The position numbers and the translations under genes are program-made. Of a stretch of 64,000 nucleotides of DNA, positions 1 through 6,043 are shown piece after piece (positions within the stretch are counted from its first letter, which is position 1; each line of letters opens with the position of its first letter). The notes beneath the pieces are model-generated. The model did not search any database, was not told where the DNA came from, and worked only from the letters and a program-made list of their open reading frames with translations. Origin of the DNA: Streptomyces sp. SAT1 (GTDB lineage: Bacteria; Actinomycetota; Actinomycetes; Streptomycetales; Streptomycetaceae); NCBI RefSeq assembly GCF_001654495.1, contig NZ_CP015849.1, forward strand, positions 2,246,501-2,310,500, read 5' to 3'.

Positions 1-90
1 GAGGTGGCCCAGTTCGAGGGACAGGTGGGACAGCGGCACCGCCTGGGTGCGCGGCTCGGCCGCGGTCTCGCGGAACACGGCCTCCGTCAC
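1..90 (-). CDS. SCO2522-family protein, N-terminal 30 residues only
   Basis: Only the start of this gene lies in the window. It begins with GTG at 90-88 and reads MTEAVFRETAAEPRTQAVPL then SHLSLELGHL before the window edge. The GTG overlaps the TGA of the upstream ATPase gene by four bases (GTGA), so the two are translationally coupled. The position directly after the variant P-loop gene and the VPLSHLSLELGHL-type N-terminus match what I remember of the SCO2522 family of Streptomyces. The function is unknown. The identification is by synteny and memory of the family, not by a known domain. Confidence 0.7.
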   Translation of the reverse strand, partial: MTEAVFRETAAEPRTQAVPLSHLSLELGHL

Positions 91-1004
91 AGCTGCCCCC
101 AGTACGTATCGTCCGTCAGCCGCCGGGCCAGTTCCTCCAGCGCCTCCAGGGTCTCCTTGTTGGCGATCTGGGTGGAGAGCACGTCCTCCTCGGTGATGAG
201 CTGTTCGCGCCACTGGAGGATCGGTTCCAGCGGGACGATGCCGACGACGACGCTGTCCCCGATGCGGTGCTCGGCGGCGAGCCTGCGCAGTGTCTCGTCG
301 CATGCCTGCATCCAGGCGGCCTGGGCGGACGAGCCGTGCGACCACAGCGGCGACTCCGGATCCGGTACGGCGGCCCGTACGAAGCGGATCGCGGCCCGCA
401 GCGCCTGCTCGTCGTGGCCGCGGGCCACGCCGCCCTTGATGATGCCGTTCTCCTTGTGGACCAGCCCGGAGGCGGCGATCACGTGCTGCCGGGTCCAGCG
501 GTGGAAGACCAGCCAGCGGAAGGGGACGTTGCGCATCCTGGGGTGGGCGGTGGCAGCGAGGGCCATGTCGACGGCGTAGCTGCGGCCCGCGCTGAGGTCG
601 ACGACGATCACGTCGAACTCGGTGTTCAGCCGCAGCAGCAGGTCCACGCACCGCTCCAGGGCCTCCTCGCCGGTGGCGAACTCGCCGCCGCCCGCGTCGC
701 CGGGCAGCAGGACCAGCCGGCCGGACTGGTTGGGGCGGGCCCGCAGCAGCGGGTGCTCGGTCTGCCGCCAGACGTCGATCCTGGCGGGCTCGGCGGCCTC
801 GCCCTCCAGGTAGGAGTGCAGGCCGCGCTCCGTGATGCCACGCATGGCGCCCGGCACGTCGAAGACGGCGGCGGCGGTCGGCGAGCCGAAGTCGAAGTCC
901 ACGTAGGCCACGTGGTCGCCGCTGAGGGCGCGCTGGTAGGCCAGGTTGGCGCTGGTCACCGAGCGGCCCGTGCCTCCTTTGTCGGAGGCGGCGAAGACGA
1001 GCAC
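87..1004 (-). CDS. SCO2523-family variant P-loop (ParA/MinD-like) protein
   Basis: The 305-residue product opens with a ParA/MinD-type nucleotide-binding loop, KGGTGRS at residues 9-15. The loop lysine of the classical motif (GKS/T) is replaced by arginine, although the first 'signature' lysine is kept. A DFDFGSP strand near residues 36-42 replaces the usual switch region. SIMIBI ATPases of this kind normally dimerise on membranes or cargo, and the altered loop suggests binding without normal hydrolysis, which is inference. The GTG start at 1004 is preceded by AGGAGG inside the end of the SCO2524-type gene, three bases away. The gene sits in a tight minus-strand operon with SCO2524- and SCO2522-type genes. 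Its cellular role is unknown. Confidence 0.85.
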   Translation of the reverse strand: MLVFAASDKGGTGRSVTSANLAYQRALSGDHVAYVDFDFGSPTAAAVFDVPGAMRGITERGLHSYLEGEAAEPARIDVWRQTEHPLLRARPNQSGRLVLLPGDAGGGEFATGEEALERCVDLLLRLNTEFDVIVVDLSAGRSYAVDMALAATAHPRMRNVPFRWLVFHRWTRQHVIAASGLVHKENGIIKGGVARGHDEQALRAAIRFVRAAVPDPESPLWSHGSSAQAAWMQACDETLRRLAAEHRIGDSVVVGIVPLEPILQWREQLITEEDVLSTQIANKETLEALEELARRLTDDTYWGQL

Positions 1005-1007
1005 GGC

Positions 1008-2852
1008 TCACACCTCCTGCGTGGCGGCGCCCCTGGCCTGGGCCAGGGTGTCGAGTTCCTGGAGGACGGGCAGGGCGAGCGCGAAGGCGGTGGCGGGCCG
1101 GTCGTCGAGCAGGCTGCGGGCGTGTTCGAGGCGGCTCTCGATGCTCCGCATGGTCCGGCCCCGGCCGCTGTCGGTGCCGGTGGCCGCCTCCAGCTGCTCC
1201 TGGCCGAACAGGTGGGTGGCCTCGCTGAGCAGTTCCCGGGCGAGCTGGGCGAGTTCGGGGCTGCGGATGGGCTGCTGCTCGTACAGGTTGCGGGCGGCCA
1301 CCAGACACTCGACGATGCGCTCGGTGATGCTCCAGGACATGCGCGGGGGCGTCCCGCGCGCGTCCGGGTAGACGGTCCGCACGTCGTCCCAGAGGTCGAT
1401 GCCCGCGCCGTCCTGGATCCGCCGGTTCCACAGGTGCTCGAAGGTCTGCTCGGCCAGCCGCAGCAGGCGGTCCTGCGCGTCGATGTTCCGGGACAGCTCG
1501 GCGAGCTGCACGATCCGTTTGAGGAGCTGGGCGGAGAAGTCGGTCATCCGCCACAGGAGCAGGCCGCCGGAGCGGTCGGAACCGGCGAGCGGCATGGTGA
1601 CGCCGGGGTGGTGCAGGCCGATGGCGGGGTCGTTGCGGGTCATCCGGCTGGTGACCCGGCCGCGGTCGGCCAGGCGTTCCATGATGGCGACCGTGCGGGT
1701 CAGGTCGTCGTCGGTGGCCTTCCGGCGGACCAGGTCGTGGACGAGGATGGCGGCGACGGTCAGGGAGAAGTACTCGGACTCCAGCCGCAGGCCGGTGGTC
1801 TGCCAGGGCAGGTCCTCCAGGGGCCAGCGCTCGCTGCCGAAGCGGGCGACGGCGGACCAGTACTGCTGGCTCAGCTCCCAGCGCAGGCGCAGCGCCTCGG
1901 AGAGCTTCTGCTGGTCGGCGTCGAGCAGTCCGAGGGTGAGGGTGCGCTCGGAGAACAGGTCCTGGATGCCGTCGAGCGCGACCACGGTGAAGTACACGTA
2001 CGGCAGCCGGTCGGCGATGCCGTCGGGCTGGCCGGGGACCTGGACGTCCAGGTCGGTGACGCGCGGCGCGTCCCGCACCACGCCCCAGGCCCAGCCGCAC
2101 TCGAAGAGCTGGCTCTCGTCGCGGATGCTCTCGTCGACCTGGATGCCGCGGGTGAGGCTCTCGATGATGGTGGCGCGCAGCGGCCGGAAGCGGCGGGCGA
2201 ACTGCTGGAGGACGGCCCGGTCGGACTGGCGGTTCTGCCCGATGACCCGGATCAGCCGCTTGCCCTGCTCGGACTCGGCGTCGAAGACGTTGACCGTGAA
2301 GGAGCGCAGCAGGCTGATCATCGCGGAGGTCAGCCGGGCGTTGGTGGCCTCGCGCAGTTCCCCGACGGCCCGGCGGACCTCGGGGCGGGTCGTGGTGGTC
2401 TCGTAGACCTTGAGGAAGCCGAGGGTGGCCAGGCAGAGCGTGACGGACATGGAGTAGGAGTCCACCACCCCCAGCTGCGCCTGGTCGTGGGTGAGTTCGC
2501 CGCCCGCCTCGGCCGGTTTGAAGTAGTGCCCGCCGGCGAAGGTGGGGCTGTCGTCGGCTCCGGTGTGGGTGCGCATGAACTGGGTCAGCGCGGTGATCAG
2601 GTTGAGCGGGATCTCCAGGCGGCTGCCGACCCGCTCCACGGCGCGCAGGACGTCCCGCTCGGTGGTGTCGGGCTGGTCGACGCGGAACGCGGGGACCTCG
2701 GTGGCGGGATACAGCAGGCACAGCAGGCGCTCGGCGTCCGCGACGCTGCTCATCCCGTCGGTGTCGCCCGTGAGGAGCTTGCCGTCCTCGAACGAGTGCC
2801 GGGCCGTGGCCCGCCAGATGTCCAGCAGATGCTGCCGTGGCTTGATCTGCAT
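1008..2852 (-). CDS. SCO2524-family protein
   Basis: The 614-residue protein starts at an ATG (2852) preceded by GAGGGG. It is rich in charged and leucine residues with long predicted helices and has no obvious membrane segment or signal peptide. I see no catalytic motif. It lies between the methyltransferase gene (82 bp upstream) and the variant P-loop ATPase gene (3 bp downstream), which is the conserved order of the SCO2522-2525 cassette. It could be the large structural or partner subunit of the ATPase, but that is inference from position alone. No function has been assigned as far as I know. Confidence 0.8.
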   Translation of the reverse strand: MQIKPRQHLLDIWRATARHSFEDGKLLTGDTDGMSSVADAERLLCLLYPATEVPAFRVDQPDTTERDVLRAVERVGSRLEIPLNLITALTQFMRTHTGADDSPTFAGGHYFKPAEAGGELTHDQAQLGVVDSYSMSVTLCLATLGFLKVYETTTTRPEVRRAVGELREATNARLTSAMISLLRSFTVNVFDAESEQGKRLIRVIGQNRQSDRAVLQQFARRFRPLRATIIESLTRGIQVDESIRDESQLFECGWAWGVVRDAPRVTDLDVQVPGQPDGIADRLPYVYFTVVALDGIQDLFSERTLTLGLLDADQQKLSEALRLRWELSQQYWSAVARFGSERWPLEDLPWQTTGLRLESEYFSLTVAAILVHDLVRRKATDDDLTRTVAIMERLADRGRVTSRMTRNDPAIGLHHPGVTMPLAGSDRSGGLLLWRMTDFSAQLLKRIVQLAELSRNIDAQDRLLRLAEQTFEHLWNRRIQDGAGIDLWDDVRTVYPDARGTPPRMSWSITERIVECLVAARNLYEQQPIRSPELAQLARELLSEATHLFGQEQLEAATGTDSGRGRTMRSIESRLEHARSLLDDRPATAFALALPVLQELDTLAQARGAATQEV

Positions 2853-2934
2853 CCCCGTACCCCTCGTACAGATCCCGTTGTCCTGTGCCGTCGCCCGTGC
2901 CGGCGCCCCTCACGCCCAGACATGGTCCCCGTTC

Positions 2935-3684
2935 CTACGGAGCGGCAATCTCCTCTTTGCGCCGTCCCAGGGCGAGGATCATGCCCTCGTGTCCGGGCCG
3001 TACCACGTGGTGCAGATCGTGCAGCTCCAGCTCGGCGGTGAACGGCTCCAGGGCCCGCCTGGCCCGCTCCTCGTTGACCCGGTAGGCCGGGTAGCGGTGC
3101 TCGCCCACGCGGTAGCCGACCGACTCCTTCATGAACGCCACGGCGAACGGCGCCCCGCCCGCGAGCGCCTCCATGAAGCAGCGCACGCCCCGCTGGAACT
3201 CCTCGGGGCACTCGGACATCGAGTCGGCGACGAAGAACATCGTCCCGATGTCCCAGCGGCGCCGTCCGTCGAGGTCGAACAGGTTGGCCCGTTCCACCCG
3301 GACGATCTCGCCGACCCGGCTGTGCGGGTCGACGCCGCGGTAGGCGGGGGCCTCGGTGAGCACGTCCCAGAAGGCGTCCCACTCCGTGCCCAGGCCCCCG
3401 GGCGCGGTCTGCCGCTTCAGGTACTCGATGTTCGGCGGCGCGTACTCCAGCAGGAGGACCTTCTCGCACCACGGCAGCATGGACAGCGCGGGATACAGGT
3501 TGGCGCCCGCGCCGACGTCGACGCCCCGCGCGAGGGCGGGGCCGGAGCCGGCGAAGCAGCGGCTGAAGTAGTCGCGCAGCAGGCGCACGATGTGGAGGTC
3601 GGCCTCCAGCGGCGTGCGGTAGTTGTTGTCGACGTACACCTCAGGATCGAACTTCGACCACGGGGCATCAGCGTTGCGATCCAT
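2935..3684 (-). CDS. SCO2525-family SAM-dependent methyltransferase
   Basis: The 249-residue protein carries a class I methyltransferase core. The SAM-binding stretch DVGAGANLYPALSM is followed by LLLEYAPPNIEYL, the usual acidic end of beta-2. The fold resembles the NNMT/PNMT/TEMTA small-molecule methyltransferases, but the substrate cannot be read from sequence. I chose the ATG at 3684 because AGGGTG lies five bases upstream. An in-frame ATG at 3705 has a badly spaced ribosome site. It is the first gene of the minus-strand cassette and is divergent from the acetyltransferase gene. Methylation of a partner of the SCO2523-type ATPase is a guess, not shown. Confidence 0.8.
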   Translation of the reverse strand: MDRNADAPWSKFDPEVYVDNNYRTPLEADLHIVRLLRDYFSRCFAGSGPALARGVDVGAGANLYPALSMLPWCEKVLLLEYAPPNIEYLKRQTAPGGLGTEWDAFWDVLTEAPAYRGVDPHSRVGEIVRVERANLFDLDGRRRWDIGTMFFVADSMSECPEEFQRGVRCFMEALAGGAPFAVAFMKESVGYRVGEHRYPAYRVNEERARRALEPFTAELELHDLHHVVRPGHEGMILALGRRKEEIAAP

Positions 3685-4009
3685 AGTCACCCTGCCGCGT
3701 TCCATTTCCTTGCGAGCCGGTCCGTGTGCGCGGGCCCCTGGACGCCGGCAGCCCCGACTGGCGGACCTCGTCCCCCGCACCGTAGACCCGCCGCAAACAC
3801 GCCGGTCCCTCACCGCGGGACGCGTCCGGTGCACCCCGGCGCACGTCAGCACATCCGGGCGCACACCCCAACTGGCCCTTGCAGTACGGAACTTGGAGGC
3901 TCCACTGTGGCAGAACGAGCAGCCGGCCGCCACATCCGGGCCTCAGTCCTTCGGGTGAGCGCGCCGGCTTCCGCCGGATTGACGTCCGCATGTCCTGACT
4001 GGGGGTGGC
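3685..4009. promoter_or_regulatory. Divergent intergenic region with a short inverted repeat
   Basis: This 325-bp gap must hold the promoters of both the SCO2525-type cassette (minus) and the acetyltransferase gene (plus). A perfect 5-bp inverted repeat TGGAG-G-CTCCA lies at 3894-3904, close to a TTGCAG hexamer at 3879-3884. I could not assign a convincing -35/-10 pair for either direction. An open frame running through the region to 3958 has no ribosome site and is not called as a gene. Confidence 0.35.
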
Positions 4010-4552
4010 ATGACCGCCGAACCGCTGGAGCATTTCCTCGACCGCCACGAGCAGCTCACCGCACCGTTCCCGGCCTCGCTGCCGCTCGTCCTGCGCCGGG
4101 TGCACGAGTCCGACCTGCCCGAACTGCAACGGCTGGACGCGGAGGTCTTCCAAGAGGTCGCGTACCCCGGTTTTCTGCTGCGCCAGCTCTACGACATGTA
4201 CGCGGAGCACTTCCTCGTCCTGGACGACGGGACGGGCCGGCTGCGCGGCTATGTGCTGGCGGGGACGACGGCGCTCGGCCGCGACAGCTGGATCCTCGGC
4301 CTGGGCGTGACCCACGACCGGCGCCGCAACGGGCTGGGCCGGGAGCTGATGACGGCGGTCCTGGACCGGCTGCGCCGCGCCGGGATCGAGCAGGTCCGGC
4401 TCACCGTCGAGCCCACCAACCGGGCCGCGATACTCCTCTACCGCTCCCTGGGCTTCGGTCCCGAGGAACCCGACGGGGGCCTGCGCCCGGACTACTTCGG
4501 CCCCGGGATGCACCGGCGGATACTGCGCCTCGACCTCACCCGGGGCCGCTGA
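4010..4552 (+). CDS. GNAT-family N-acetyltransferase
   Basis: The 180-residue protein has the acetyl-CoA binding motif A of GNAT enzymes: LGLGVTHDRRRNGLGRELM, with the Q/RxxGxG core at residues 105-110, followed by the motif B region ending in LYRSLGF. It resembles RimI-type transferases, so a protein N-terminus or small amine are both possible acceptors. The ATG at 4010 follows GGGGGTGGC. The gene's 3' end overlaps the convergent phosphatase gene by 17 bp, and its stop codon is the loop of a GC-rich hairpin. Confidence 0.85.
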   Translation: MTAEPLEHFLDRHEQLTAPFPASLPLVLRRVHESDLPELQRLDAEVFQEVAYPGFLLRQLYDMYAEHFLVLDDGTGRLRGYVLAGTTALGRDSWILGLGVTHDRRRNGLGRELMTAVLDRLRRAGIEQVRLTVEPTNRAAILLYRSLGFGPEEPDGGLRPDYFGPGMHRRILRLDLTRGR

Positions 4553-5036
4553 GCGGCCCGGCCGGGCGCGGCGGCGCGAAGTCCCGCACGTACCGCTTCT
4601 GCCAGGGCGTCTCCACAGCACGCCGGTCGTAGTGCGCGCGCACATGGGCGACCGCGTCCCCGGGAGGTACGCCGTCCAGCACGGACAGGCAGGCCAGGGC
4701 GGTGCCGGTGCGGCCCAGACCGCCGGCGCAGGCGAACTCGACACGCTCGGTGGCCGTGCGCCGCCAGGCACGGGCGAACAGGTCGCGGGCCGCCTCCCGG
4801 TCGGCGGGCAGCCGGAAGTCGGGCCGGCGCAGCCAGTGGGACTCCCAGGAAAAGCCGGGCGGCGGTCTGCCGAGCAGAAAGACGCCGCAGGTGGGGGCGG
4901 GGGCGGCCGGGTCGAGGGGGCGGCTGAGGCCCCGGCCGCGCACCAGGCGGCCGGACGGGAGGCGCAGGACACCGGGGGCGTCCTCGTCCCAGGGGGGCGC
5001 GGAGTGCCCGCCAGGGGGCGCGGACTGCTCGTTCAC
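4536..5036 (-). CDS. Protein tyrosine phosphatase-like protein
   Basis: The 166-residue protein contains the CX5R phosphatase signature CAGGLGRTG (Cys103, Arg109), as in dual-specificity and tyrosine phosphatases. A WxxxxW/LPAD region upstream may supply the general acid. GTG at 5036 is preferred because GAGGGGAG precedes it and because a longer frame would run into the divergent DapA-like gene. It is probably cytosolic, since no signal peptide is seen. The gene faces the acetyltransferase gene tail to tail. The substrate is unknown. Confidence 0.75.
   Translation of the reverse strand: MNEQSAPPGGHSAPPWDEDAPGVLRLPSGRLVRGRGLSRPLDPAAPAPTCGVFLLGRPPPGFSWESHWLRRPDFRLPADREAARDLFARAWRRTATERVEFACAGGLGRTGTALACLSVLDGVPPGDAVAHVRAHYDRRAVETPWQKRYVRDFAPPRPAGPLSGPG
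4543..4559. terminator. Hairpin with a stop codon in its loop
   Basis: GGGCCGC (4543-4549) pairs with GCGGCCC (4553-4559). The loop TGA is the stop codon of the acetyltransferase gene. The hairpin lies in the 17-bp overlap between two convergent genes and could end transcription from either side. There is no T tract. Confidence 0.5.
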
Positions 5037-5122
5037 GGGCGCGGCGCTCCCCTCGGACGTGTGGTGGCGCGGCGACGATACAAGGCAGTTGTCGTCGACC
5101 GCCACCGCTCCCGGGAGCCCGT

Positions 5123-6043
5123 ATGACCTTCCCCGCGCCGCTGACCGGTGTCGTCCCGCCCGTGTGCACACCGCTGACGCCGGAGGGCGAGGTGGACGTG
5201 GGCTCGCTGCTGCGGCTGGTCGACCATCTGGTGGCGGGCGGGGTGCACGGACTGTTCGTGCTCGGGACGACGTCGGAGGCGGCGTTCCTGACGGACCGGC
5301 AGCGCGCACAGGTGGTGGAGGCGGTCGCCGGGCACGTGGGGGCGGGGCTGCCGGTGCTGGCGGGCGCGGTCGACATGACGACGGCGCGGGTGCTCGACCA
5401 GGTGGCCGCGGTCGCGGCGGCGGGCGCGCGGGCCGTGGTGGTGACCGCGCCCTTCTACGCGGCCGCCCGCCCGGCGGAGACCGCCCGCCACTACCGCCGC
5501 GTCGCCGCCGCGAGCCCGGTCCCGGTGCTCGCCTACGACATCCCCGCCGCGGTGCACACCAAGCTGCCCGCCGCTCTCGTGCTGGAGCTGGCCGGGGAGG
5601 GCGTCCTGGCCGGACTGAAGGACTCCAGCGGCGAGCTGGACGGCTTCCGGGAGGTCGCCGCCGGGGTGCGCGCGGACTCGCGTACGGCCGGGTTCAGCGT
5701 GCTGACCGGCTCCGAGCGGCTGGTCGACGTGGCGCTGGCGCTGGGCGCCGACGGCGCGGTGCCGGGGCTCGCCAATGTCGACCCGCACGGCTTCGTACGC
5801 CTCTACCGCCTCGCGCGCGCCGGTGACGCGCAGGGGGCGCGGGCCGAGCAGGAGCGGCTGTGCGCGCTGTTCGCACTCACCCGGACCGGCGGCCCGGGAC
5901 CCGCGGCGCCCGGCCCGTTGAAGGCGGCCCTTCATCTGCGCGGAATCATCGACTGCCCGGCCACCGCCGGACCGCAGCTCCCGCTGACGGAACAGGAGGT
6001 GGCACACGTACGCGACCACCTCGCGACGGCGGGGCTGCTGTAG
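5123..6043 (+). CDS. Dihydrodipicolinate synthase/N-acetylneuraminate lyase family protein
   Basis: The 306-residue TIM-barrel protein has the class I aldolase signature of the DapA superfamily: GTTSEA (48-53), catalytic Tyr138 in YDIPA and the Schiff-base lysine Lys166 in GLKDSSG. All three match the pyruvate-dependent lyase mechanism. The usual DapA GTTGE is changed to GTTSE. The gene is not next to other lysine or diaminopimelate genes, so it is more likely a catabolic 2-keto-3-deoxy sugar-acid or 4-hydroxy-2-oxo acid aldolase than the biosynthetic dapA. ATG at 5123 follows the divergent phosphatase promoter region. Confidence 0.85.
   Translation: MTFPAPLTGVVPPVCTPLTPEGEVDVGSLLRLVDHLVAGGVHGLFVLGTTSEAAFLTDRQRAQVVEAVAGHVGAGLPVLAGAVDMTTARVLDQVAAVAAAGARAVVVTAPFYAAARPAETARHYRRVAAASPVPVLAYDIPAAVHTKLPAALVLELAGEGVLAGLKDSSGELDGFREVAAGVRADSRTAGFSVLTGSERLVDVALALGADGAVPGLANVDPHGFVRLYRLARAGDAQGARAEQERLCALFALTRTGGPGPAAPGPLKAALHLRGIIDCPATAGPQLPLTEQEVAHVRDHLATAGLL

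Follow-up and report, generated by a model that had tools for sequence, protein, structure and literature searches.

The stretch of DNA analysed here (the window) comprises 64,000 nucleotides of the 7.47-Mb genome of Streptomyces sp. SAT1 (positions 2,246,501-2,310,500) and carries, at its left edge and on the minus strand, a cassette of genes belonging to the SCO2521-SCO2525 families. All five proteins passed the curated NCBIfam cut-offs (Table 1). An earlier note, made from the sequence alone, had read positions 1-3684 as four tightly packed genes for a SCO2525-type methyltransferase, a large SCO2524-type protein, a SCO2523-type ATPase-like protein and the start of a SCO2522-type protein, and had expected a fifth, SCO2521-type gene to the left of the window. 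The four genes were confirmed, and the fifth was found just where it had been expected. Tight packing was observed between SCO2524 and SCO2523 (a gap of 3 bp) and between SCO2523 and SCO2522 (an overlap of four bases), and is followed by a spacing of 1 bp and then of 78 bp to the next gene; the claim of tight packing does not extend to the methyltransferase gene, which lies 82 bp from SCO2524. The closest relative of the SCO2524 protein was found in Streptomyces sp. NRRL S-340 (93% identity).

Table 1. Genes and other features of the module. Positions are those of the window; bit scores are followed by the cut-off of the family.
Feature	Position	Strand	Remarks
SCO2521-type gene	left of window, after SCO2522		NF040565, 402 bits, cut-off 150
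SCO2522-type gene, first 30 codons	1..90	-	remainder left of window (L005:9125-10090); NF040566, 482 bits on the whole gene, cut-off 200
SCO2523-type MinD/ParA-like (SIMIBI) protein, Arg14 in P-loop	87..1004	-	NF040564, 508 bits, cut-off 200
SCO2524-type protein	1008..2852	-	NF040567, 929 bits, cut-off 300; predicted (alpha/alpha)6 toroid, residues 1-528
SCO2525-type S-adenosylmethionine (SAM) methyltransferase, NNMT/PNMT/TEMT family	2935..3684	-	NF040568, 297 bits, cut-off 240; accessory member
Intergenic region between divergent methyltransferase and acetyltransferase genes	3685..4009 (325 bp)	.	possible shared control region
GNAT acetyltransferase, seventh module member	4010..4552	+	TIGR01575 (RimI), 47.3 bits, under the cut-off of 86.4

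The distribution of these families was followed in a sample of 296 genomes of the class, in which SCO2524, SCO2522 and SCO2521 were counted at E <= 1e-3 and SCO2523 at E <= 1e-20. The stricter limit was applied to SCO2523 because its model also picks up ordinary MinD/ParA proteins at 1e-3: among 149 genomes sampled across the phylum, 32 gave a match at that limit and four exceeded the cut-off. The four families were carried by an identical set of 29 genomes, and none of them was detected in the other 267. Independent scattering of the four core genes was thus not seen among these genomes, and the proposal that the genes form a unit is borne out for the core. It is not for the methyltransferase, which had been taken for a constant partner: SCO2525 was over its cut-off in just 19 of the 29 cassette genomes, and weaker relatives of it (120-141 bits, against a cut-off of 240) occur in five cassette-free genomes of the same genus (G238, G310, G328, G353 and G380). 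The four core families are therefore strictly co-inherited and the methyltransferase is optional. We also compared 108 loci: that of the window, 80 relatives taken as the best of 398 (79 of them titled Streptomyces or Kitasatospora, the other "Actinobacteria bacterium") and 27 loci from other genomes of the class. Gene order was mostly conserved across these loci, with the tight spacing kept. Within the genus the module is patchy, being present in nine of the 28 genomes sampled.

A sixth gene follows SCO2521 in 101 of the 108 loci, three of the seven misses being contig ends (L055, L059 and L076). In three loci (L129, L143 and L145) this gene sits instead between SCO2523 and SCO2522, and because its position shifts within the cassette we regard it as part of the module and not as a chance neighbour. 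Hydrophobic segments were detected in 31 of 34 members of the encoded family, with two or more segments in 16, so that a membrane location of the protein is probable; the membrane association put forward in the earlier note is judged likely on this ground. A C-terminal part resembling DUF6879 was recognised in 25 of the 34 members (E <= 0.01, best 7e-11), the protein of the present genome scoring 15.3 bits against a cut-off of 23.9. The NCBIfam search gave no match beyond chance for the membrane gene, and SCO2521 had neither a Pfam match nor a PDB sequence match.

That the membrane gene and the neighbouring acetyltransferase gene belong to the unit is best supported by the chromosomal setting. 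Eight of nine carriers of the same genus have the module in the interval between leuA and recO, the ninth (G406) about 0.6 Mb away. Among the non-carriers sampled, the length of this interval varies between less than 1 kb (G422) and about 23 kb (G362). Cassette genes, membrane gene and acetyltransferase gene were absent (E 1e-5) from all 19 non-carrier intervals, while DapA-, TerB- or S33-type neighbours, which are also present in the window, persist in nine of them. In carriers these neighbours switch sides, and the block stays whole. The leuA-recO interval (for example in L215, L217, L222, L224, L226 and the left part of the window) seems to be an accessory-gene hot spot. An origin on a plasmid or phage is not supported: searches of 72,556 plasmid and 50,697 phage records gave no SCO2524, and no viral contig passing a pattern-based scan contained it.

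The methyltransferase and the acetyltransferase are frequent extra members of the module and usually occur, or are lacking, as a pair. Of the 108 loci, 99 have a GNAT acetyltransferase gene no more than 1.6 kb from the cassette. The Streptomyces loci have it in divergent orientation and nine other loci in the same direction as the cassette, and in L127 it lies at the cassette's far side. The gene is near 97 of the 98 loci with a methyltransferase, the exception (L081) being a contig end, and near two of the ten loci without. Among 40 representatives, obtained at 85% identity on SCO2524, 35 had both genes, two had the acetyltransferase only and three had neither (Fisher p 0.001, with shared ancestry ignored). 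By its sequence the acetyltransferase is a GNAT protein nearest to RimI, and it is not called RimI proper because its score falls under the TIGR01575 cut-off; it was also under every other NCBIfam cut-off listed. It carries a complete RRNGLG stretch, which we take to be the acetyl-CoA loop of GNAT proteins. SCO2525 matches Pfam PF01234 with 36 bits (cut-off 25), and a search with its profile picks up NNMT structures at about 1e-8. The residues of its SAM motif, Asp56, Gly58 and Gly60, are invariant in 34 members.

The intergenic region between these two divergent genes was aligned for 24 loci, that of the window and 23 close relatives. An imperfect inverted repeat, CCAA[C/G]T-N17-AGTT, appeared in 19 of the regions and a TAGAGT motif in 15, counts made with no shuffled control; the former is possibly an operator and the latter possibly a promoter. 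A precursor peptide encoded in the 325 bp was considered; no conserved frame could be seen by eye in the alignment. On the other side of the acetyltransferase gene, between it and a DapA-like gene, a minus-strand open frame (about 4536-5309) contains a CAGGLGRTG stretch that suggests a small protein phosphatase.

The SCO2523 protein departs from the KGGxGK[ST] loop in every locus compared. The P-loop reads SDKGGTGRS in 107 loci and SDKGGAGRT in the remaining one (L119), and the P-loop lysine is replaced by arginine in 108 of 108, which confirms the substitution at Arg14 first noticed in the window. In an alignment of the 39 members left after thinning, whose columns average 68% identity, no variation occurs at residues 7-17 or at Asp36, Asp38 and Asp136. 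The invariant residues include Lys9; we take Lys9 and the three aspartates to be the signature lysine and the Walker aspartates of deviant Walker A ATPases. Drift would be expected in a P-loop that had lost its function, and we therefore infer from the alignment that nucleotide binding has probably been kept. Solved relatives (Mrp and MinD) align to about the first 70 residues, and the rest of the protein has no solved counterpart by sequence. Outside the MinD/Mrp-matching stretch, eight further residues (R163, W164, H168, R169, W170, T171, Q173 and H174; window positions 483-518, minus strand) are invariant in the same 39 members.

For SCO2524, no Pfam family was found at E <= 0.1, and the best PDB sequence match (E 0.015) was to YacP and covered residues 535-606 only. 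A model built from 39 sequences (predicted local distance difference test, pLDDT, 88.8) showed a toroid formed by residues 1-528, followed by extra C-terminal helices (532-613). The model matched D-mannose isomerase 5x32 with a Z of 19.4 (336 aligned residues, root mean square deviation, rmsd, 4.0), cellobiose epimerases with Z up to 19.2, and GH76, GH88, complement TE domains and squalene-hopene cyclases with Z of about 16-18. Helical models without a clear match typically peak at a best Z of 14. The predicted structure suggests that SCO2524 likely adopts the (alpha/alpha)6 toroid fold.

The model of SCO2522 (pLDDT 82.4) looks like the class I aminoacyl-tRNA synthetase fold. Such synthetases and MshC made up all 50 VIA matches listed, with Z between 9.5 and 12.3; they include ArgRS 5jld (the best, with Z 12.3, 184 aligned residues and rmsd 3.2), CysRS (11.5), MetRS (about 11) and MshC (10.2). 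These matches came from the 1000 chains ranked highest by Foldseek, and many of them represent a single protein, the MetRS of T. brucei; models without a clear match usually peak at Z 7-8. Several features nevertheless kept us from filing SCO2522 as a synthetase. The HIGH motif (searched as H[ILVM]G[HN]) was found in none of the 108 proteins. An E-x-G-H tetrapeptide is present in all 108, but inside strand 23-31 of the model. The KMSKS motif was absent from the 107 complete chains, and also from L059, which is cut at 67 residues. If KMSKS is assumed to come after these strands as in the synthetase topology, the modelled chain would stop about where the motif should follow. Past the last Rossmann strand of the model there is no room for an anticodon-binding domain. 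Profile comparison by hhalign gave a probability of 1.2% against 19 CysRS (E 0.045) and 0.1% against 19 ArgRS, five other cassette families used as controls giving 0.1-0.6%; sequence homology of SCO2522 to CysRS or ArgRS is thus not supported.

The five-gene cassette is already catalogued in NCBIfam, and three publications, which were available in part, were found to name these genes. In the text available, an operon sco2521-sco2526 is placed in the HupS group and SCO2525 is described as "necessary for normal growth" (PMC11472566), SCO2525 is listed as a target of HrdB with a "morphogenetic role" (PMC6344877), and it is mentioned beside metH with regard to SAM levels (PMC3017869). All three give Gehring et al. 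2004 as the source for SCO2525. From the positions of the genes we infer that SCO2526 would be the acetyltransferase and SCO2520 the membrane gene. Neither these two genes nor the published role of SCO2525 had been noticed in the earlier note. What is new here is the extension to seven genes, the distinction between a strict core and optional enzymes, and two predicted folds, none of which was met with in the available portions of the literature searched.

Taken together, our data lead us to propose, tentatively, that the locus is an accessory chromosomal module of seven genes in actinobacteria, specifying a membrane-tethered, nucleotide-switched complex that would build or modify an amine-containing molecule. 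SCO2521-SCO2524 would assemble into one complex that the product of the sixth gene holds to the inner face of the membrane. SCO2523 would serve as a nucleotide-binding switch, forming the usual sandwich dimer through its signature Lys9; with Arg14 standing in for the P-loop lysine, it would hydrolyse the nucleotide slowly or need a partner for doing so. The SCO2524 toroid and the SCO2522 Rossmann protein would provide the substrate-binding or catalytic centre; lacking HIGH and KMSKS, the latter would not be an adenylating enzyme of the normal kind. The methyltransferase and the acetyltransferase would tailor an amine on the product or target, and loss of this tailoring could disturb growth and development, as cited for SCO2525. 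We consider it distinctly improbable, though worth stating, that the module represents a membrane-tethered transfer machine of a novel type. A SIMIBI switch lacking its lysine would gate a toroid and a degenerate class I synthetase fold devoid of HIGH and KMSKS, methyl and acetyl tailoring would be optional, and the machine would produce or modify a compound that acts on both growth and development of multicellular actinomycetes.

Several observations weigh against the proposed complex. The fold assignments rest on predicted models. Foldseek returned nothing at E <= 0.001 for either: its best value for SCO2524 was 0.006, and its top matches for SCO2522 were unrelated proteins (for example galactosyltransferases) at E 0.16 or worse. 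The profile comparison likewise gave the fold assignment of SCO2522 no backing. The invariant residues of SCO2524 were tried as the usual mark of a toroid active site; 13 of them fall within the 72 positions concerned, against 9.1 expected, and 110 of 527 shifts reach this number. Since they show no significant clustering at the face where the active site would be expected, SCO2524 may serve as a scaffold. In ten of the 29 cassette genomes the methyltransferase is either absent or below its cut-off; one of these genomes (G429) has its cassette split between contigs. No membrane gene was picked up at E 1e-6 in L127, L130, L134 and L139, and the hydropathy scan that marks its product also flags 20 of 39 SCO2524 and one of 39 SCO2523 proteins.

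Other explanations were weighed against this proposal. SCO2523 could be a spatial organiser that, in the manner of MinD or ParA, determines where in the hyphae a membrane or cell-wall process takes place; the remaining proteins would be its adaptors, one of them modified by the methyltransferase. We hold this to be rather unlikely. It is consistent with the relationship of SCO2523 to MinD, ParA and Mrp, with a probable membrane partner and with the morphogenetic role cited for SCO2525 in the available part of PMC6344877. The patchy occurrence in the genus (nine of 28 genomes) argues that the module is not core cell-cycle machinery, and the core contains two enzyme-like predicted folds.

A similarly doubtful explanation is signalling of the conflict or defence type, with a non-turnover MinD/ParA-like protein as sensor or platform and the other proteins as effectors. 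Here the absence of SCO2524 from the plasmid, phage and viral-contig collections counts against the idea, as does the conservation of the P-loop, which is above that expected for a dead domain. Comparison of six proteins of the module (the acetyltransferase excluded) with PADLOC at E <= 0.1 gave two weak matches, from the P-loop of SCO2523 (residues 7-44) to PDC-M28B at E 6e-5 and from SCO2524 to Cas8b at E 0.019, so that assignment to a known defence system is unsupported. Pfam and NCBIfam scans revealed no nuclease, peptidase, TIR or pore-forming domain. The idea would agree with the patchy distribution in a variable leuA-recO spot and with the predicted-inactive MinD/ParA-like domains described for actinobacterial conflict systems in the part of PMC7159879 available.

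It is quite unlikely, in our estimation, that the module is a transferase linked to tRNA or translation, in which SCO2522, as a degenerate class I synthetase, would use an aminoacyl-tRNA or an adenylate made elsewhere and the GNAT protein would act on the N-termini of proteins or peptides. The structural matches of SCO2522 point this way, all 50 listed being class I synthetases or MshC, albeit with many rows for the T. brucei MetRS, and so does the proximity of the acetyltransferase to RimI. These stand against the lack of HIGH in all 108 proteins and of KMSKS in the 107 complete chains, the lack of room for an anticodon-binding domain and the absence of a relation detectable by sequence. Finally, mere co-localisation of genes under one promoter, with no common complex, is very improbable: the methyltransferase and acetyltransferase can be missing and the membrane gene changes position, but the four core families co-occur perfectly in 296 genomes and the block stays whole while its flanks change.

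With this work SCO2525, which the literature credits with an influence on growth and development in S. coelicolor without giving a mechanism, becomes an accessory part of a module whose genes are inherited jointly. Membership in the module shows which genes should be studied jointly and which partners should be sought. The arginine in the P-loop throughout the family and a synthetase-like predicted fold devoid of adenylation motifs are both unusual and directly testable.

Comparison with known systems places each component near a described family. In the NCBIfam families SCO2521-SCO2525, the functional content of the names is limited to "variant P-loop" and "SAM-dependent methyltransferase". 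SCO2522 has in common with class I aminoacyl-tRNA synthetases and the mycothiol ligase MshC the predicted Rossmann catalytic fold, and differs from them by the lack of HIGH, KMSKS, C-terminal domains and detectable sequence similarity. The predicted fold of SCO2524 is alike to that of (alpha/alpha)6 toroids (AGE epimerases, GH76, GH88 and squalene-hopene cyclases) and of C3/C5 TE domains; the likeness is one of fold only, with 7-14% identity in the rows listed, no Pfam match and added C-terminal helices. SCO2525 belongs, by Pfam and profile, to the same family as the NNMT/PNMT/TEMT small-molecule N-methyltransferases, from which it differs in being bacterial and operon-linked, the likeness holding at the level of the family and leaving the substrate-binding residues aside. 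With MinD, ParA and Mrp, SCO2523 shares the KGGxG signature, Lys9 and the conserved aspartates, and differs by the arginine in place of the P-loop lysine. The earlier note could name no parallel for the combination of a SIMIBI ATPase without the loop lysine and a SAM methyltransferase, a view that has to be given up on three grounds. SCO2525 has a cited developmental role, according to the partial texts referred to above. MinD/ParA-like domains predicted to be inactive are described in the VMAP-ternary and peptide-processing conflict systems of actinobacteria (Kaur et al. 2020, PMC7159879, available in part), and SCO2523 is likewise MinD/ParA-like; Pfam and NCBIfam scans of the module detected no vWA, MoxR, AP-ATPase or peptidase domain. 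Among the papers listed by the literature search, none contained KGGVGR. NCBIfam names SCO2523 a variant P-loop family and lists a KGGVGR-variant domain (NF047398), whose name holds the same arginine-for-lysine change and to which SCO2523 scores 41 bits against a cut-off of 90.

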